From positions 1 to 39,232 of IMG/VR virus record IMGVR_UViG_3300025168_000216: a DNA stretch of 39,232 nucleotides; one strand, given 5' to 3'. The notes under the pieces are model-generated. The model worked only from the letters and a program-made list of their open reading frames with translations, was not told the origin of the DNA and ran no database searches. The translations under genes were made by a program, and so were the position numbers. The DNA is from a virus. Within the stretch, counting starts at the first letter, position 1. The number at the start of each line of letters is the position of its first letter. Below, piece by piece: positions 21,254-29,004 of the stretch.

Positions 21254-21811
21254 ATGTTAGATGTTTTAATACAAAAAGGTTCTATAATAACTGTACCTGA
21301 TTTTTTAGACAGTTATAAGAATCTAGACAGTAAAAAAGATAAGTACGAATATAGTCCTACATATCAGCCAAACTCTATTGATTATGGTAATAGGTTTCAG
21401 GCTACGCCTTGTTACGAAACTGCTAATCTAGAAGATGTAGACAGTAAAATAAATACATCTATCTTAAAACAACTTAACGCATTATTTGACAAAGAAATAA
21501 TTAATTTTCATTGCCGATTAAGATGTACAAAAACTAGTGAGTTAAGACGATCTCCTCAATATAAAGACAGCAATATTGCCATGATACATACAGATACTGA
21601 CAATTTTGCTGGTGTATTGCCTTTTGCACAATCATTTACAGGTGGTACAGCTTTTTTTGAACACAGTTGGGATAAGTTTCCTGACATCTATTATGGTGCA
21701 TACCCAAACAGATTAGTTTTGTACAGAGGCAAAAGAAACCATGCGGCCTGTCAAGATTTTACTTTTGAAGATAGATTTGCATTAATTTTATTTTTTGATT
21801 TAGCTAAATGA
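21254..21811 (+). CDS. 2OG/Fe(II)-oxygenase-like protein (DUF6445-like)
   Basis: 185 residues. IHTDTD places a His-x-Asp pair at H112/D114, and LVLYRGKRNHAACQDF gives a distal His at 163 with Arg174 downstream; together these form the usual facial triad plus 2-oxoglutarate-binding arginine. The ending RFALILFFDL is the last strand of the double-stranded beta helix. The motif pattern resembles DUF6445 proteins. The substrate is unknown. The start has AGGGAGG. It is the first gene of a five-gene run joined by 4-nt overlaps. Confidence 0.65.
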   Translation: MLDVLIQKGSIITVPDFLDSYKNLDSKKDKYEYSPTYQPNSIDYGNRFQATPCYETANLEDVDSKINTSILKQLNALFDKEIINFHCRLRCTKTSELRRSPQYKDSNIAMIHTDTDNFAGVLPFAQSFTGGTAFFEHSWDKFPDIYYGAYPNRLVLYRGKRNHAACQDFTFEDRFALILFFDLAK

Positions 21812-22386
21812 AAAATCTTTGGTGGTTAATGCCTAACGGTGTGACTGACGATGAAGTGAAAAACATTGTTACGATAGGCAACAATAATAAATTAGAAGAT
21901 GGCACTATTGGATATGGTGGTAAGAAAGGCGAATTAGACAAAACAGTAAGAAGTGCTAAACGCTACTTTTTAGACGGTAAAGAACACAGAGAGGTCTTTG
22001 AATTAATATGGGGTTTAGTTTCACCAATCAATAAATCGCAATTTAATTTTGATATTAAATCAGTAGAAGATATTCAATACACAGTTTATGATGCAGATGA
22101 CAAAGGTCATTACGATTGGCACATAGATACTTTTTGGTGCAATCCAGATGATAAGCCTTACTACACAAGAAAAATAACTATTGTTATTCAGCTATCTGAC
22201 TCAGAGGATTATGAAGGTGGTGACTTTGAGATAAACAATGCTGAATGGGAACAGTTTACAGAAGGTGCTAGACAAAAAGGTGCAGTAATAATTCTTCCAG
22301 CTTTTATAGAACACAGAGTAACGCCAGTAACAAAAGGGGTTAGAAAATCTTTAGTTGCCTGGATAGATGGAGAAAATTTTAGATGA
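21808..22386 (+). CDS. 2OG/Fe(II)-dependent oxygenase (prolyl-4-hydroxylase-like)
   Basis: 192 residues. The core reads HYDWHIDTFW (H105, D107), a strand pair RKITIVIQLS and YEGGDFEI, then GAVIILPAFIEHRVTPV (H169) and VRKSLVAWIDG (R179), the complete signature of the P4H-type superfamily. It should hydroxylate a protein or small molecule using 2-oxoglutarate and O2 in the cytoplasm. Related genes are frequent in marine phages. It is coupled to its neighbours by ATGA overlaps at both ends, so it is probably co-translated with the other oxygenases. Confidence 0.85.
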   Translation: MKNLWWLMPNGVTDDEVKNIVTIGNNNKLEDGTIGYGGKKGELDKTVRSAKRYFLDGKEHREVFELIWGLVSPINKSQFNFDIKSVEDIQYTVYDADDKGHYDWHIDTFWCNPDDKPYYTRKITIVIQLSDSEDYEGGDFEINNAEWEQFTEGARQKGAVIILPAFIEHRVTPVTKGVRKSLVAWIDGENFR

Positions 22387-22970
22387 CTTTTAAAACACAA
22401 GGATATGAAGTTGTGCCAGATGCTATTCCTATTGAAATAGTAAATTTTCTTTATGAGTATTTTTTACGAAAACGAGATGTTGTAAGAATATTGTACGATA
22501 CTAAATACGTGCAAACTCATCCTACGCACATGATAGGTAGTTGGGAGGATGAACAAATTCCAAATACATATTCACACTATGGTGACATTGCTATGGATAC
22601 ATTGTTAGCAAATGCTTTGCCAATAGTAGAAACTATTACAAAAATGCGATTAATACCAGCTTACTCCTATGCTCGTATATATAAAAAAGGTGATGTATTA
22701 GTTGCACACGTAGATCGGCCTGAGTGTGAAATTTCTACAACTCTGTTTCTTGGTGGTGATGAGTGGGAAATATATTTAGAAGGTAAAGCAATTCTGCCAA
22801 AAGTTGGCGAGATGATTATATATAAAGGATGTGATTTAGTGCATTGGAGAGATGCCTTTGAAGGTGAAAAATGTGTGCAAGTTTTTTTACACTATGTTCC
22901 TTACACAAAAAATGCTAAATTTTATGATGGCAGAGAAATGTTAGGTTTACCAATGGAGTTTATGAAATGA
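22383..22970 (+). CDS. 2OG/Fe(II)-dependent oxygenase
   Basis: 195 residues. YSYARIYKKGDVLVAHVDRPECE supplies H109 and D111, EISTTLFLGGDEWEIYL forms the following strands, and GEMIIYKGCDLVHWRD supplies the distal H154. The usual arginine about ten residues later is not obvious: the corresponding strand reads EKCVQVFLHYV, with Lys in the area, so cosubstrate contacts may differ. The protein carries an N-terminal helical part (VNFLYEYFLRKRDVVR). It is the third member of the overlapping cassette. The substrate is unknown. Confidence 0.8.
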   Translation: MTFKTQGYEVVPDAIPIEIVNFLYEYFLRKRDVVRILYDTKYVQTHPTHMIGSWEDEQIPNTYSHYGDIAMDTLLANALPIVETITKMRLIPAYSYARIYKKGDVLVAHVDRPECEISTTLFLGGDEWEIYLEGKAILPKVGEMIIYKGCDLVHWRDAFEGEKCVQVFLHYVPYTKNAKFYDGREMLGLPMEFMK

Positions 22971-23680
22971 AAACAACAACTATTTATTGGTGTTATGGAA
23001 ACCCACATCAAATTAAAGCAAAAGCACCTACACCTGTATTAGCACATTATTTTGCAAGTGACAAGAAAGTGCATAAAACACCAGCGCAAGATTTAGATTA
23101 CATTCGATGTCCTTCATTTAGGTCAGCGTATACAAATACGTTTGCCTTAAGATACATACATGATTACAAATTAGAAATAAACAATGGTAAATTAAGTAGT
23201 AATGATTTTAATCAAGAATTTTATGACCTTCATGTTAGAGTTCGCAATCTAGATGCACACGAAGTTTCTATAGAATCACCTTATATATTTGTTGCTGAAG
23301 ATGATGATATGGAAATGGAATACAGACACTCAGCTATGGAAAATAATGCTTTTAACAAATCTGCTATATTAATTATTGGTGACATCAATATTGGTAAGTA
23401 CGTAAGAGGTACAGAATGTGCGTTTCATATGCGAGAAAATAAAATGGAAATTAAAGAAGATGACGTTTACGCTTACGTTAAATTTAGAACAGATAAAAAA
23501 ATAGTATTAAAACAATTTTTATGGAAACCTGAAATAACTGAACCAGCAAACACAGCAATTAATGGTATTACCTTGTTTAGAAAAAGAATTTTTAAACCTT
23601 TAGATTGGTATTATAAAAAACAACAGGCGTTTAAGGTTAAAGAAAGAACTTTAAAAATGATTAAGGAGAATTTGTTATGA
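22967..23680 (+). CDS. Unknown protein inside the oxygenase cassette
   Basis: 237 residues starting TTTIYWCYGNPHQIKAKAP, with no signal peptide or membrane segment. Strand-rich segments (YIFVAEDDDMEMEYRH, SAILIIGDINIGKYVRG) lie in the middle and a basic helical end follows (KPLDWYYKKQQAFKVKERT). I do not recognise it and see no HxD...H triad. 4-nt overlaps with oxygenase genes on both sides mean it is made together with them, perhaps as substrate, adaptor or partner enzyme. The H-x-x-D/E-rich middle could bind metal; this is speculation. Confidence 0.6.
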   Translation: MKTTTIYWCYGNPHQIKAKAPTPVLAHYFASDKKVHKTPAQDLDYIRCPSFRSAYTNTFALRYIHDYKLEINNGKLSSNDFNQEFYDLHVRVRNLDAHEVSIESPYIFVAEDDDMEMEYRHSAMENNAFNKSAILIIGDINIGKYVRGTECAFHMRENKMEIKEDDVYAYVKFRTDKKIVLKQFLWKPEITEPANTAINGITLFRKRIFKPLDWYYKKQQAFKVKERTLKMIKENLL

Positions 23681-24294
23681 TTATTAATGTACATACTGAA
23701 CCATTTCATTACATTACAGTAACAGATATATGGACAAAAACTGAATACAACGAAATATTAGCAGAGATGCAATACTTGGAAAGTAAAGGATATTTCAAAG
23801 ATGCGGAAGATACTGGGACAGCAACAGATGAAAATCATGAAGCACTAAAGAAAAACAAAGCTCAATGGATTGATCACGTATATCAAGATAGAAAATATTC
23901 AGACATACTAAAACACAACAGAAAAATATTTGATGTTCTACAACAAGAAATAGTAAATGAATCTTGGTTTTTTAAATTACTTGAATTTGATTTAGATACA
24001 ACATTAGTATCTTATTACGAAAATTCTGATTATTATAAGTCACATCAAGACAAAGCAAAAGTTACTGGCTTGTCATGGTTTTTTAGTAAACCGCAAAAAT
24101 TTGCTGGTGGTGATTTAATTTTTACAGATTTTGATTTGCGTTTTCCAGTTGCAACTGATATTCTTATCTTATTTCCTTCTAACATAAAACATGAAGTTAC
24201 TGAAATTCGTATGAGCAAAGCAACACAAGGAAAGCAATTAGGCAGATATGCAATGAATCAATTTTTATGTTTTACTGGTAAAGAATATGAGTAG
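23677..24294 (+). CDS. 2OG/Fe(II)-dependent oxygenase
   Basis: 205 residues with the full triad: YYKSHQDKAKVTG (H123, D125), SKPQKFAGGDLIFTDFD, DILILFPSNIKHEVTEI (H172), and LGRYAMNQFLCF with R190 for 2-oxoglutarate. FAGGDL after the first strand pair is a typical family turn. It is the last of four oxygenase-like genes and its stop overlaps the first exported-protein gene by 8 nt (ATGAGTAG). AAGGAG precedes the start inside the previous gene. The target may be a phage surface protein or a host protein; the sequence does not say. Confidence 0.8.
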   Translation: MIINVHTEPFHYITVTDIWTKTEYNEILAEMQYLESKGYFKDAEDTGTATDENHEALKKNKAQWIDHVYQDRKYSDILKHNRKIFDVLQQEIVNESWFFKLLEFDLDTTLVSYYENSDYYKSHQDKAKVTGLSWFFSKPQKFAGGDLIFTDFDLRFPVATDILILFPSNIKHEVTEIRMSKATQGKQLGRYAMNQFLCFTGKEYE

Positions 24295-24856
24295 AAAGAT
24301 TAACAACACAATTGCCTTTGGCATAGTAGCTACTTTTCTTATACTGTCTTTCTCAGCTATGGCAGATGAAAGCACGATTACGCAAAACACTACATCTACA
24401 GTAACAACTGATGGCAACATGGTGACTACCGTAAAATCGCCACCGCCATCGGCCATATCGCCAAACGTAGGTGGTAACAACTCAGATTTATGTACAATCT
24501 CATCTAGTGGTGCAATGGGTACACAGATATTTTCATTGAGTTTAGGTGCTACATATACTGAGTCTAATTGCCTTAGACTAAAAAACGCAAAAACTCTTTA
24601 CGATTTTGGTATGAAAGTAGCGGCAGTCTCGTTATTATGCGCTGATCCTTCTGGGGAAATTCATAGGGCGATGGCTATGGCGGGGACTCCCTGTCCGTAT
24701 TTTGGTAAAATTGGGAAGGAGGCAACTGAAGCCTGGGCGGTTCACACCGAAGATATACCAGTACCAAGTAAAGATTTGCAAAAAACAACTGAGGAAAAAA
24801 GAGATGATGTCATTAAGATTATGGGCGGTCTTGCTACTGCTTTCTTGTTCTTCTAG
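24287..24856 (+). CDS. Exported protein, conserved marine-phage type, unknown function
   Basis: 189 residues. A signal peptide is clear: basic start SRKINN, hydrophobic core, and likely cleavage after FSAMA at residue about 26. The mature part begins with Thr-rich repeats (TTSTVTTDGNMVTT) followed by SPPPSAISPNVGGNNSDLC, four further cysteines, and AMAMAGTPCPYFGKIGKEA, which I associate with an uncharacterised protein of many marine phages. The C-terminus IMGGLATAFLFF is hydrophobic and may anchor it. Even cysteine number suggests disulfides in the periplasm. It is the first of five consecutive exported products. Confidence 0.65.
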   Translation: MSRKINNTIAFGIVATFLILSFSAMADESTITQNTTSTVTTDGNMVTTVKSPPPSAISPNVGGNNSDLCTISSSGAMGTQIFSLSLGATYTESNCLRLKNAKTLYDFGMKVAAVSLLCADPSGEIHRAMAMAGTPCPYFGKIGKEATEAWAVHTEDIPVPSKDLQKTTEEKRDDVIKIMGGLATAFLFF

Positions 24857-25667
24857 CGTACACGCTTACACATTTGGATACACACCTAACGTAGCTATTA
24901 CTGGCTTAGAATGGACAATGACTCCTACCTATCTTGGTACTAATGGTATTGGTGGTATGGATATATCAGGAGTAACTTACAAGTACACACCTATCAAAAA
25001 CAAAGCTGATGACTATGTTGTTACATTAGAAAACGACAAAGTTGGTGGTGGTTACGTTTTTCAAGATAAACAAGACTGGTCACAACGAGAAGGTGGTACT
25101 GAAATTAGAAGAACCATAGCTTTGCCTTATACACCTATTGCAGTTTTTGGCGATGGTAGGCTCAAGCAAGAAGGTAGTGGCAGTATAGAAGGTGCTGATG
25201 TAAGGTACATCTACAGATTCGATCCTTGCTTTGATCCACAATCTAATCCTAGTTGTCCTGGTTACGTAAAACCTAAACCACCAAAACTTCCCGACATTCC
25301 TGATTATGATGCATTACAGGATGAGTCTGTAGAGATTGCACAAAAAGAAACGGATCGTGAATTATTAGATTCAGATCAAGCAGAGAAAGATGAAGATGAA
25401 GAAGAGAAAGAAGAATCATTAGAATTTATGTTAGCTGATGTCGAGAACGCTCTTACTATTGCTAATGAGATAGCACAGTCTGTAATACTTGAACAATTAA
25501 ACCAAGTTACTAACTTAACTAATTATTACGTGTCTACTATACCTGACAATTACTACCCTGATGCGGTGGCTTTACAAGGTGGTACTATCGTGGATAATAG
25601 GAGGGCATTAAGGAGCTTATCGCAAGATGCGAGAATGAATAAAATGATAGAGGAGCAATACAAATGA
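24804..25667 (+). CDS. Exported acidic protein with signal peptide
   Basis: The start at 24804 (MMSLRLWAVLLLLSCSSSVHA) is preferred over an upstream in-frame ATG at 24702, because it has GAGG about 9 nt upstream and gives a clean signal peptide cleaved near residue 21. The 287-residue product overlaps the previous gene by 53 nt. The mature part has an N-terminal beta-rich domain, a Cys pair (PCFDPQSNPSC), a Pro-rich hinge (KPKPPKLPDIPDYD), a very acidic stretch (about residues 180-200), and a helical end. Function is unknown. It could be an envelope-spanning protein with a flexible linker, which is inference. Confidence 0.65.
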   Translation: MMSLRLWAVLLLLSCSSSVHAYTFGYTPNVAITGLEWTMTPTYLGTNGIGGMDISGVTYKYTPIKNKADDYVVTLENDKVGGGYVFQDKQDWSQREGGTEIRRTIALPYTPIAVFGDGRLKQEGSGSIEGADVRYIYRFDPCFDPQSNPSCPGYVKPKPPKLPDIPDYDALQDESVEIAQKETDRELLDSDQAEKDEDEEEKEESLEFMLADVENALTIANEIAQSVILEQLNQVTNLTNYYVSTIPDNYYPDAVALQGGTIVDNRRALRSLSQDARMNKMIEEQYK

Positions 25668-26155
25668 AAAAACTTTTAATAGCAATGAGTTTAATACTTG
25701 GTGCAACACCAGTTTTGTCGGCAGACATTGATGGCACAGTTGAGTCCAGATGCAATATTGCGGTGACAGAACCAGGAAAATATGGAAACCCAAATGCGTA
25801 TACACTTACAACGCTACCAAGTAGTGGTGGACAAGTGCCTATCATTAGATTCGATACTACACTAGCTAATGCTTATTATGCACAGGTTAGTTATCCTACT
25901 AGCTTTACTGTAAGTCCATCATTGTCTGACAATGTAACGTGGACTGGTGCTGTAACTGTTAAAGCTACTGGAGAGTCTGGGATGTCAGGATACCAAACTG
26001 CTAGTACGGAATCAGGCTCAATGCGACAATACGATCTAACAGTTGTCGGTGCAGTATGGCTACAAAGTACGTCTGTTGCGACATATGGCGGTAATAGAGC
26101 TTTTCCAGGAGGCACGTATAAAAGTGTTGTTTTAGCTCAATGCGTAGCGCAGTAG
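25664..26155 (+). CDS. Exported beta-rich protein (pilin-like in outline)
   Basis: 163 residues with signal peptide MKKLLIAMSLILGATPVLSA. The mature part is short beta strands rich in Thr, Ser and Gly, with one Cys near its start (VESRCNIAV) and one near its end (VVLAQCVAQ), and a last strand pattern GTYKSVVLAQC that recalls secreted fimbrial or spore-coat-U-type subunits. That resemblance is only in outline and I do not claim family membership. It starts with a 4-nt overlap after the acidic exported protein and overlaps the next gene by 16 nt. Confidence 0.65.
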   Translation: MKKLLIAMSLILGATPVLSADIDGTVESRCNIAVTEPGKYGNPNAYTLTTLPSSGGQVPIIRFDTTLANAYYAQVSYPTSFTVSPSLSDNVTWTGAVTVKATGESGMSGYQTASTESGSMRQYDLTVVGAVWLQSTSVATYGGNRAFPGGTYKSVVLAQCVAQ

Positions 26156-26517
26156 CATTATGTTTATTACTGTTTAATTACACAGTACATAGTCACGAGC
26201 AAACTCCAACGTATCCTACTTGGAAAGTAAGTGGAGTAGATGGAATAAAGAAGACTAACATTAGGCTATGGAATAAAAGACCTAATGTTGAGTATTATGA
26301 GATAGGAGTATTTAAAGAAGACTTAAAGACACCGATACCTTTTGTTACAGCTTATAAGATTGTGCCACTAGGTTATTTAAAAGAAGTAAAGTTTGATGTT
26401 TACATCAGAGAAAGTAACATTAAGGATGCTAGATACGTTTGTTCATTGTCTAAATTAAGGAGTAAAGATATGAGTAAGACTTTAGTAGCTACTAGAATAT
26501 GTTCAAAATTCAAATAA
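26140..26517 (+). CDS. Exported beta-sandwich-like protein (periplasmic chaperone-like in outline)
   Basis: 125 residues. The signal peptide RSAVALCLLLFNYTVHS is cleaved before HEQTP. The mature protein has NIRLWNKRPNVEYYEIGVF and TPIPFVTAYKIVPLGYLKEVKFDVYI, a strand order like the first domain of periplasmic pilus chaperones (surface-strand Trp/Asn motif, then Pro-Gly turn and alternating hydrophobics), but half their usual length and without the second domain. Two Cys are near the C-terminus. It overlaps both neighbours (16 and 19 nt). The chaperone idea is speculative. Confidence 0.6.
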   Translation: MRSAVALCLLLFNYTVHSHEQTPTYPTWKVSGVDGIKKTNIRLWNKRPNVEYYEIGVFKEDLKTPIPFVTAYKIVPLGYLKEVKFDVYIRESNIKDARYVCSLSKLRSKDMSKTLVATRICSKFK

Positions 26518-26927
26518 AGTGGTTACTGTTAATGCTAATTTCAACACACACATTGGCTAACAGTACCTCACTTAACTTGCAACTACCTAGTGGTGGCTCT
26601 AGTCATGGTACAGATAGCATTCGAGCTGGTGACCTTGATTGTAAAAATAGTATAGGCGGTAGTACAAATTTTGAAATAGGTATGACAGGAATAATAAACA
26701 ATGCGGTCACACCAATCTTTGGTAAAGATGATCCTACGAATCCAGAAACAAAACAATTAGGCGTATATGCTAGGATTATTATTCCTTTAGATGCACCACG
26801 TGAACGTATTAATTGTAATACTTTATATCAGCTTGAGCTACAAAGACGTAGGTTAGAAGTAGATAAGTTGCGTCAAGAAATAGAACTGTTAAAATCAATG
26901 CAACTTGGAGATGGATTTGATAACTAA
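26499..26927 (+). CDS. Exported protein with C-terminal coiled coil
   Basis: 142 residues. A signal peptide FKIQIKWLLLMLISTHTLA is followed by mature NSTSLNLQLPSGGSSHGTDS, then IRAGDLDCKNSIGG and GVYARIIIPLDAPRERINC with paired cysteines, and a terminal coiled coil (LYQLELQRRRLEVDKLRQE). This motif set recurs in uncharacterised marine-phage proteins as far as I recall. It is the last of five adjacent exported proteins and is followed after 10 nt by a 33-residue membrane peptide. Function is unknown. Confidence 0.65.
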   Translation: MFKIQIKWLLLMLISTHTLANSTSLNLQLPSGGSSHGTDSIRAGDLDCKNSIGGSTNFEIGMTGIINNAVTPIFGKDDPTNPETKQLGVYARIIIPLDAPRERINCNTLYQLELQRRRLEVDKLRQEIELLKSMQLGDGFDN

Positions 26928-26937
26928 GGAGTAAGGT

Positions 26938-27039
26938 ATGAATAATAAATGGATATGGATAGGTCTTGGATTGACTGTATTGGTTATTCTTATGATCTGG
27001 GGTGTTAGTCAAACTATGTGTAAAGAAGCTGTCTGCTAA
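26938..27039 (+). CDS. 33-residue single-pass membrane peptide
   Basis: ATG at 26938 follows AAGGAGTAAGGT. The product MNNKWIWIGLGLTVLVILM... is almost entirely one transmembrane helix and ends in QTMCKEAVC with two cysteines. Its stop overlaps the next start (TAATG). Position beside holin candidates suggests a lysis accessory or antiholin-like role, which is unproven. Confidence 0.6.
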   Translation: MNNKWIWIGLGLTVLVILMIWGVSQTMCKEAVC

Positions 27040-27329
27040 TGACTGAAGTAGAAAGAAGTACAATGACTTGGCGATGGTGTGCTTTGTCATTATATCTTTT
27101 AATTTGTTTTTATGATTTCCTGTTTGTACCTGTTTGGTATGGTTTAAATAGACCTGACATAGCACAATTTATGGAAATAATAAATAGCACAGATGAAGTT
27201 TTAATTCAAATGGAGTTAATGACTAAACTTACTGGACAACACAGTCCGTTTACTTTAATGGGTGGAGGCTTATTTCATTTAGCTTTTGGTGCAATACTTA
27301 CAGGTAGTGCGGTAGGGATGAAAAAATAA
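27039..27329 (+). CDS. Putative holin (two membrane segments)
   Basis: 96 residues with hydrophobic segments at about 13-34 (CALSLYLLICFYDFLFVPVW) and about 72-92 (LMGGGLFHLAFGAILTGSAV), a short charged start and a basic end (GMKK). Size and topology fit small phage holins, which form inner-membrane lesions at lysis. It is joined to both neighbours by TAATG overlaps in a run of membrane proteins before the DUF1353 gene. I know similar proteins only as unnamed marine-phage ORFs. Confidence 0.55.
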   Translation: MTEVERSTMTWRWCALSLYLLICFYDFLFVPVWYGLNRPDIAQFMEIINSTDEVLIQMELMTKLTGQHSPFTLMGGGLFHLAFGAILTGSAVGMKK

Positions 27330-27796
27330 TGGCTGATTTAGGTGACAAGGTAGCAGAGATAGAAGGCTTAGTTGATAAAAGAATTAAGCTAGGTGGTCTG
27401 CGGTTTACTTATACACAGCTTGTTGGTGCATTTGCTCTTCTGTCTACGATAGTTGGCTCACTCTATGGAGGGTTCTTAATGTATCAAAAAGTGGAAGGAA
27501 TCGCAAATTTGGACTTAGGAGCAATACAATCAGCTATGGAAAAGACCTCGGCTGACGTACTAAGAGTTGAGGAGGTTGCATCAGAAATTAAAATTGAGCT
27601 GAAGGAAGACCTCGCAAGACTCAGATCGTCAAGTTATAATCTTGAAAATAGGCTCGACACTAAGCTACAATCTGTAGATGTAAGAATTACTACTATGGAT
27701 AATAAACTGGATAAGTTTGACATACAGCTTGATCTTACAGAAGAAAAATTAATGAAGCGAGTCCAACAAAGTTTAGACAATCCACTAAGTAACTGA
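27329..27796 (+). CDS. Membrane-anchored coiled-coil protein
   Basis: 155 residues. A transmembrane segment at about 29-52 (TQLVGAFALLSTIVGSLYGGF) is followed by a long coiled coil (residues about 60-150, with repeated hydrophobic spacing as in LDTKLQSVDVRITTMDNKLD). An inner-membrane anchor with an extended coil resembles inner-membrane spanins and XhlA-type lysis accessories. No lipoprotein partner is adjacent; the only small lipoprotein gene seen is on the opposite strand at 30465-30638. The spanin idea is inference. Confidence 0.55.
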   Translation: MADLGDKVAEIEGLVDKRIKLGGLRFTYTQLVGAFALLSTIVGSLYGGFLMYQKVEGIANLDLGAIQSAMEKTSADVLRVEEVASEIKIELKEDLARLRSSSYNLENRLDTKLQSVDVRITTMDNKLDKFDIQLDLTEEKLMKRVQQSLDNPLSN

Positions 27797-27812: not shown

Positions 27813-27863
27813 ATGCCATATAAAAAAAGAAAATTACCACCTAGACCTAAAAGAAGATACTAA
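27813..27863 (+). CDS. 16-residue Lys/Arg-rich micropeptide
   Basis: ATG at 27813 sits 5 nt after AGGAGA and encodes MPYKKRKLPPRPKRRY; the stop overlaps the next start (TAATG). Nine of 16 residues are basic. The strong site and coupling argue for translation, though it may act mainly as a leader that couples the next gene. I could not check whether the peptide is conserved. Confidence 0.45.
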   Translation: MPYKKRKLPPRPKRRY

Positions 27864-28051
27864 TGACAGCGAAACAACAAGTGCAGATAGATCGTCATGA
27901 AAAACAAATAGATGATTTATACAAGGATGTCAGAGAGATCAAGAACATGAATTTAAAGTTTATGTCTATGGGCAAAGGTTTAATAATTGCTTTTGTAATC
28001 ATGACAAGTATAGACATTGGCCTGGGTGATTTATTAATGAAGCTCTTATGA
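27863..28051 (+). CDS. XhlA-like small membrane protein
   Basis: 62 residues: an N-terminal charged coil (IDRHEKQIDDLYKDVREIKN) followed by one membrane segment at about 38-56 (GLIIAFVIMTSIDIGLGDLL). This order is the same as in haemolysin XhlA-type proteins that work with holins. Overlaps of 1 nt upstream and 4 nt downstream place it in the lysis-like run. The role in lysis is inferred from topology. Confidence 0.55.
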   Translation: MTAKQQVQIDRHEKQIDDLYKDVREIKNMNLKFMSMGKGLIIAFVIMTSIDIGLGDLLMKLL

Positions 28052-28488
28052 TAAGTTTATTATCAAGCCTAGCTCCCATCTTATTTGGTTTTGTAGCTAA
28101 GATTATTGCTGTTAAAGCTCAAGCAGCATCAGACAATCAAAAGTTAATGATCCAAAACATGAACGCTAGGAATGACTCTATTAATCAAGCTAGAGAAGCG
28201 GAAAAATCTGAGAGTGTAGGTGCAGCACTAAATCGAAGGGTTATTATTTTTGTGATACTCGCCCTCATAATCTTTACCCAAGTAGCTGGGCCTCTTTTAA
28301 ATATTGAAACTGTTGTGCCTACTGTTATTGAAGGTATCAGTTTTTTCGGTATTCAATTTACAAGGGATACTATGGAGTATGTAACTGTGCAGTCAGGTGC
28401 AGTATTGAAGCTAAGTGAGGTCTTTTCATGGGCTACCACCATTATAGAGGTATATTTTGGCGCACAATTGGGAAAGGCTACTAGATAA
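28048..28488 (+). CDS. Putative holin-like membrane protein
   Basis: 146 residues with a hydrophobic N-terminus (LLSSLAPILFGFVAKIIAV), a charged middle helix (RNDSINQAREAEKSESVG), a strong membrane segment at about 66-85 (VIIFVILALIIFTQVAGPLL), and a third hydrophobic stretch near the end. Topology resembles three-segment holins of the GTA type, but I cannot confirm a family match. Its start overlaps the XhlA-like gene by 4 nt. With the 96-residue gene upstream this makes two holin candidates. Confidence 0.5.
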   Translation: MISLLSSLAPILFGFVAKIIAVKAQAASDNQKLMIQNMNARNDSINQAREAEKSESVGAALNRRVIIFVILALIIFTQVAGPLLNIETVVPTVIEGISFFGIQFTRDTMEYVTVQSGAVLKLSEVFSWATTIIEVYFGAQLGKATR

Positions 28489-28503: not shown

Positions 28504-29004
28504 ATGCCAGTAAAAATTAAATACAAAGAGTTACCAACATTAGTTCCTCAAAAGATTGAAACAAAAAGCAAAGGCTTTATAGGTGGAATAATAATGTGGC
28601 TTTTGACTACTCGTAAATGGGCAGTAGCTGAAGATTGGAAGTTTAGTCTGCAAATGGATGGCCAAAAAACTGCAACTCAATATATGATTCCCAAAGGTTT
28701 TATAACAGATGGCTGTAGTATTCCCAAGTTTTGCAGAAGTTGGGTAAGCGTCACAGGTGTATTATTAGCTGGAGGCCTTATACATGACTATGGTTATATG
28801 ATGGGTACGCTTAGACTAGCTACTAAGAAACCTAAAGCAATTACTACTAAAGACCAAAAATGGATGGATGAATTGTTTCGTGACATAAATATTGATGTCA
28901 ACGGGTTCTTTTTGTTAAATTGGGCAGCCTACTTAGCACTTCGATTAGGTGGTTGGGTTGCTTGGAACGGACACCGCAAACGCAATGTCCAATGGGATGA
29001 TTAA
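28504..29004 (+). CDS. DUF1353 protein of the lysis region
   Basis: 166 residues. YMIPKGFITDGCSIPKFCRSW (about residues 60-80) and LAGGLIHDYGYMMGT (about 88-102) are the two hallmark motifs of DUF1353, a phage family often found near holins and of unproven function. The HDYGY motif looks like a possible metal or catalytic site. A hydrophobic patch (NGFFLLNWAAYLALRLG) lies near the C-terminus. AAAAGGAG precedes the start. The stop overlaps the convergent gene by 4 nt. No conventional endolysin is visible, so this gene deserves attention as a lysis factor. Confidence 0.75.
   Translation: MPVKIKYKELPTLVPQKIETKSKGFIGGIIMWLLTTRKWAVAEDWKFSLQMDGQKTATQYMIPKGFITDGCSIPKFCRSWVSVTGVLLAGGLIHDYGYMMGTLRLATKKPKAITTKDQKWMDELFRDINIDVNGFFLLNWAAYLALRLGGWVAWNGHRKRNVQWDD

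Follow-up and report, generated by a model that had tools for sequence, protein, structure and literature searches.

The virus record IMGVR_UViG_3300025168_000216, a single record of 39,232 bases with 37% GC that was analyzed at full length (the window), contains five consecutive, overlapping plus-strand genes, here called E1 to E5, whose products are predicted to be exported. Together with a sixth gene, H2, they form a unit made up of two parts, E1-E2-H2 and E3-E4-E5, each of which also occurs without the other. The window has a podovirus-like gene set (gp3-type small terminase, large terminase, portal, scaffold, major head protein, and tail fibre), and a tRNA search found no tRNA in it; named records and the titles of metagenome-assembled genomes indicate that the relatives are largely marine or aquatic. 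The members of the unit in the window are the following.

E1, 24287 to 24856, plus strand: signal peptide, Thr/Asn-rich stretch, four-Cys domain, and short hydrophobic C-terminal tail.
E2, 24804 to 25667, plus strand: signal peptide, beta-like domain, acidic/proline linker, and conserved C-terminal region ending in EEQYK.
E3, 25664 to 26155, plus strand: predicted exported immunoglobulin (Ig)-like subunit with Cys30 and Cys160.
E4, 26140 to 26517, plus strand: predicted exported protein with a single-domain PapD/MSP-like fold and Cys101 and Cys121.
E5, 26499 to 26927, plus strand: predicted exported protein with a conserved two-Cys beta-like part and a C-terminal coiled-coil-like helix.
H2, 27329 to 27796, plus strand: N-terminal transmembrane (TM) segment, coiled coil, and C-terminal NPL motif; a hydrophobic window at 29-35 passes the hydropathy cut-off.

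Signal peptides were called by one fixed, home-made rule applied to 54 hand-listed window genes. Six score as signal-peptide-like, namely E1 to E5 and a 33-residue open reading frame (ORF) at 26938-27039, and a run of at least five consecutive hits arises in 6e-5 of shuffles of six hits, which bears out the original prediction that five successive genes start with such signals. The same rule finds the feature kept in relatives (E1, 18/22; E2, 21/22; E3, 30/33; E4, 30/30; E5, 10/12). The signal peptide of E2 starts at the ATG at 24804, and the mechanically called ORF begins earlier, at a TTG at 24702. The paired cysteines that had been predicted for the mature parts are present, four in E1 (69, 95, 118, and 136) and two each in E2 (142/151), E3 (30/160), E4 (101/121), and E5 (48/106); the sequence also plainly shows an acidic linker in E2 and a coiled-coil-like terminus in E5, both predicted earlier. 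A lipoprotein assignment for E2, suggested by an LLSC motif, was rejected, its Cys being replaced in relatives.

Sequence comparisons gave few names. E1 matches phrog_20531 (E 2.4e-15), and its four Cys columns and C-terminal tail, which falls below the 17-residue hydropathy cut-off, are visible in the alignment of relatives; E5 matches phrog_37374 (E 2.9e-7). E2, with 36 full-length relatives aligned, has no PHROG or Pfam match of weight, E3 (33 members) and E4 (30 members) have only sub-threshold Pfam matches, and comparison of E1 to E4 with solved structures by sequence returned nothing credible. A near-identity search among phages found none, as did tblastn in phages with E2, the window E4, and one E3 relative. 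No named secretion family matched E1 to E5 in the searches made, and no paper describing the module came up in the literature searches.

The evidence for a unit comes from gene order. The E1 search gave 67 viral loci; from the E5 searches the best 80 of 174 matches and, in a wider search, the best 80 of 446 were kept, a Vibrio E3 search added 4 loci, and profiles were iterated over 260 loci. Among the 113 E5 loci with more than 4 kb upstream, which are not independent in that some Vibrio phages are present twice and other loci overlap too, 97 have the order E1-E2-E3-E4-E5 and 16, all Vibrio phage records, have E3-E4-E5; none of the 113 has E5 without E3 and E4. The block is a real unit, and the co-occurrence that the original prediction expected of a neighborhood survey is borne out. 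Of 43 loci with 3.5 kb on either side, 31 were treated as non-redundant and surveyed for neighbors. Only H2 proved a nearly constant neighbor, being present in 30 of the 31 (the next families reach 10/31), with its C-terminal NPL motif in 29/31, and we therefore count six genes: the linkage of the five stands, and the end assigned at 26927 left the unit one partner short. Two small ORFs, H0 and H1, lie between E5 and H2 in the window.

The two parts of the unit also occur separately. E1 is found without E3-E5 in 25 of the 121 E1 loci with more than 4.5 kb downstream, and cultured SAR11 and roseobacter phages carry E1-E2-H2 without E3-E5. Annotated phage records with E1 number 11, six of them Pelagibacter phages; in all eight inspected by eye, E1 is followed by an exported protein and then by an H2-like protein with an NPL end, small ORFs sometimes intervening, and in six of them the E2-like protein contains a long linker that is acidic or rich in proline, which the two roseophages lack. 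The E1 profile is absent from 9/9 Vibrio records, and E4 and E3 queries from Vibrio phage Brizo returned 179 records each, all Vibrio phages. Profile comparison of the Vibrio and window forms gave 98.0% for E3, 96.7% for E4 (in an alignment that takes in the signal peptide), and 97.6% for E5. The E4 start lies 16 nucleotides before the E3 end in 131 loci, the commonest arrangement, and the E3-E4 pair travels intact between unrelated phages. As a separate observation, alphaproteobacterial contigs (L167 7353-8333, L169 7275-8366) encode an isolated Asn-rich protein that is apparently exported and has the four-Cys motif of E1, with no phage genes seen around it; one contig is a complete Hyphomonadaceae chromosome.

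The predicted model of E4 (pLDDT 86.2, pTM 0.74), which at 125 residues has one domain only, adopts the N-terminal domain fold of the periplasmic pilus chaperones, the half-chaperone that had been read from its strand order. Over the whole mature protein it matches the first domain of SafB, DraB, Caf1M, and FimC; the SafB match has a Foldseek E of 1.8e-4 and a VIA-align Z of 10.0 (root mean square deviation 2.9, 103 aligned), followed by Caf1M and FimC (Z 9.8 each) and PapD (9.2). Animal MSP domains score nearly as high (9.6), so the fold class of the model is clear but the family is not. PapD_N (PF00345) matched in 0/22 records, so E4 is no member of that family by sequence, and a viral fold library gave no informative name. 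In the model, Cys101 and Cys121 lie on the two final strands, an arrangement of the Caf1M class. A basic residue, Lys or Arg, occurs two positions past the second Cys in 128/128 distinct matched E4 proteins, with 5 further matches not fitting the pattern, and may correspond to the anchor lysine of Caf1M and PapD. Separately, the first residue past the predicted cleavage site is a histidine in 30/30 aligned non-Vibrio E4 proteins, and the Vibrio form lacks this histidine.

The E3 model (pLDDT 91.7, pTM 0.80) is a beta sandwich and is Ig-like, and its identity as a pilin is only suggestive. The pilin-like ends originally predicted for it are weakly supported. Foldseek ranks pilins first (FimF at E 2.3e-3, CfaB, and PapG), but the TM-score is low, and VIA-align favors MSCRAMM adhesin domains (best Z 7.3), with no usher-dependent pilin among 50 rows. 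The genes do co-occur in relatives, and sequence comparisons of E1 to E5, with fold comparisons of E3 and E4, turned up no convincing counterpart among known lysis or virion proteins; these were the two points on which the original prediction had staked itself.

Several known systems invite comparison. The unit resembles two-component spanins (Rz/Rz1) in the layout of H2, whose sequence suggests the N-terminal TM segment and periplasmic coiled coil of an i-spanin, and in that some relatives adjoin endolysin or terminase, but differs in having additional exported proteins and no lipoprotein partner in the window. A lipobox scan of the 54 listed window genes found only E2, whose Cys is not kept in relatives, and one internal false match; the Rz-like family (phrog_312) has no match in the window and elsewhere matched in 1/20 records (the H2-like gene of ctXG6705) and in 0/10. 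With chaperone-usher pili (SafB, Caf1M, DraB, FimC) the unit shares the predicted chaperone first-domain fold of E4, its two Cys on the last two strands, and the basic residue two after the second Cys, but those chaperones have two domains (PapD_N and PapD_C) where E4 has one, and E3 is no more than a putative pilin; the usher (PF00577) matched in 0/22 records, and an E. coli positive control matched. Like the curli genes (T8SS) of pelagiphages, it is a multi-gene exported module common to unrelated marine phages; the study of those genes proposes superinfection exclusion or aggregation as their role, and HTVC023P, the type phage of the group it treats, also carries E1 (PMC9599517). Curli membership was rejected, as CsgG (PF03783) matched in 0/31 records. 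Phage T5 has a receptor-masking lipoprotein of the Llp type, and Vibrio phages likewise have a small lipoprotein gene near a possible adsorption gene, but the module described here has five exported parts and that lipoprotein is absent from the window. As far as these searches reach, the module lacks what defines spanins (a lipoprotein in the window, a family match), chaperone-usher systems (usher, two domains), and curli (CsgG), and it may work like one of them despite this.

Among the eight E1-E2-H2 phages, two have the genes near an endolysin and three by a terminase. HTVC023P has E1, an E2-like gene, a small ORF, an H2-like gene, and then directly an M15 peptidase; in ctXG6705, the H2-like gene, whose product matches the Rz-like spanin family weakly (E 0.0067; E 2.7e-4), is followed by a SprT-like gene, a possible holin (phrog_3427, E 0.0035), and a GH24 lysozyme. 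The terminase large subunit is next or third after the H2-like gene in HTVC202P, Baldr, and S28C10. Small ORFs with at least two TM segments lie downstream of the block in 21/31 loci and upstream in 6/31. The holin PF11351 is above cut-off in 1/20 records, far from E1, and the M15 peptidase PF08291 in 1/31; the sole PF08291 match of the window is sub-threshold and within the tail fibre gene.

Nine Vibrio E3-E5 regions were compared, two of which lie by a holin and endolysin and two among head-tail genes. In Brizo and pVp-1, E3-E4-E5 is followed by a lipoprotein, a small ORF, a holin (phrog_860 in Brizo), and an M15 peptidase/endolysin; in 1.205.O and D56 an endolysin gene follows E5 at a distance of about 2.3 kb, and K376, D82, and PS14A.1 have no annotated lysis gene in the stretch. 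The lipoprotein after E5 is conserved in the Vibrio phages, as judged from a phrog_16916 match in the single one scanned and by eye in the rest. Immediately upstream of E3, all eight Vibrio regions in which that side is visible have a gene of one and the same family (five by phrog_10818, three by blastp); its product is large, carries no functional assignment, and looks fibre-like.

A few genes near the unit deserve mention in their own right. CRP-810 gp51 (L069 7213-7635) and CRP-207 gp73 (L074 3292-3873) are annotated as lysozymes and are actually H2-like coiled-coil proteins; CRP-207 gp73 has no lysozyme match in Pfam. In the same two roseophages a small lipoprotein-like ORF upstream of E1 (L069 5609-5869, L074 1725-1940) shares part of the E1 Cys motif and is a possible o-spanin-like partner. 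A transglutaminase-like cysteine peptidase gene (BTLCP, below cut-off; L146 4471-4887), without a signal peptide, lies between E5 and H2 and possibly encodes an endolysin, and a class 3 lipase gene follows shortly after H2 at L145 11738-12445, its family occurring near the block in 7/31 loci. In the window, several 2OG-Fe(II) oxygenase-like genes lie upstream of E1 (21254-24294; recognized by eye, most of them not scanned), and their presence varies among relatives; a DUF1353 protein at 28504-29004 (E 5.7e-10) recurs 3′ of the block in 10/31 loci. The remaining window genes around H2 are listed here.

H0, 26938 to 27039, plus strand: 33-residue ORF with one hydrophobic segment (sequence, hydropathy).
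H1, 27039 to 27329, plus strand: small membrane ORF, optional; present in 5/68 loci including the window's own, in two of these before E1.
H3, 27863 to 28051, plus strand: coil and TM segment, optional neighbor; weakly XhlA-like (Pfam XhlA E 0.037, below cut-off).
H4, 28048 to 28488, plus strand: multi-TM by hydropathy, possible holin, optional neighbor; family in 10/31 loci, no Pfam match for the window protein.

We tentatively read the unit as a late-acting envelope or exit module with an i-spanin-like anchor and a chaperone-subunit pair. From the computed export signals, co-inheritance, predicted E4 fold, and H2 layout, we infer timing, contacts, complex formation, and an action on the outer membrane as follows. 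H2 would be anchored in the inner membrane, its coiled coil extending into the periplasm like that of an i-spanin and its conserved NPL tip docking onto the exported proteins. A periplasmic bridge would be formed by E1 and E2, with the acidic linker of E2 as a spacer; E4 would hold the Ig-like E3 in the manner of a pilus chaperone with its pilin, and E5 would connect the E3-E4 part to the rest. The complex would act on the outer membrane after endolysin removes the wall, allowing progeny to leave. The near-constancy of H2, with its i-spanin-like layout, counts for exit, which is the most likely use, with surface action close behind; neighboring genes favor exit for E1-E2-H2, and those in Vibrio also allow an adsorption-linked role for E3-E5. 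It is mainly because the Vibrio neighbors favor such an adsorption link that we keep exit tentative, and other facts weigh in the same direction. The window has no recognized endolysin, a lysozyme lies many kilobases from E1 in HTVC115P and Baldr, as does the holin of CRP-810, E3-E5 sits among head-tail genes in Vibrio phages K251 g3 and BP15, and inspection of the Vibrio regions by eye showed no H2-like protein; the spanin coiled-coil match may be compositional, and we know of no lysis system with a pilus-chaperone fold. The distant lysozyme and holin genes and the Vibrio regions without adjoining lysis genes led us to reject a constant place in a lysis cassette. The exported envelope module originally predicted thus stands as to predicted export, block-like inheritance, and a chaperone-like member, and the data do not decide among the exclusion, remodeling, exit, and adhesion that were offered for it.

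A surface device is a serious alternative, if one we doubt: E4 would load E3 into an exported fibre or receptor mask, of which E3 is a subunit and which serves to block superinfection, to prevent progeny from sticking to debris, or to aggregate cells. The predicted chaperone fold with its constant basic residue, the inseparable E3-E4 pair with its 16-nucleotide overlap, the fibre-like family and lipoprotein flanking the Vibrio genes, and the roles proposed for pelagiphage curli all fit such a device, but with neither usher nor CsgG in the records searched it has no known way through the outer membrane, the case for E3 as a pilin is weak, the large Vibrio upstream gene is absent from the window, and the constancy of H2 goes unexplained. 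That E1-E2-H2 and E3-E4-E5 are mere neighbors with different jobs strikes us as improbable: each part does occur alone (25/121 and 16/113 loci), and E1 is missing from the Vibrio records, but where both meet their order is invariant (97/97) on contigs that differ greatly in size, and E5 is still followed by H2. Least probable of all, periplasmic proteins would coat or finish the virion as it leaves, for example by decorating fibres; this would suit the fibre-like Vibrio gene, the head-tail surroundings in K251 g3 and BP15, the tail fibre gene that precedes the unit in the window, and the fibre-type family that does so in 8/31 loci, but E1 to E5 carry no PHROG structural label and virions assemble in the cytoplasm. 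Returning to exit, a more ambitious form of it, which we consider unlikely, is an usher-less chaperone-subunit machine of phage origin, in which the PapD-like E4 would load an Ig-like subunit onto a trans-periplasmic scaffold of E1, E2, E5, and H2; after loss of the wall this scaffold would breach the outer membrane from within, and the machine would replace spanins in many marine phages.

The unit is a real, widespread phage operon of predicted exported proteins; one member has a predicted pilus-chaperone fold, and one partner is laid out like an i-spanin. A survey found no spanins in 91 of 677 phages (~13%) and asked for other exit routes (PMC6139136); the conserved six-gene operon, which in some cultured marine phages lies near endolysin or terminase, is a concrete candidate for such spanin-less exit. 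If it is a surface device instead, it would place a phage-borne chaperone-subunit system beside the known pelagiphage curli genes. Either way, a large family (at least 446 E5 relatives in one scan), labeled hypothetical or unknown in the annotated records inspected, gains a testable role.

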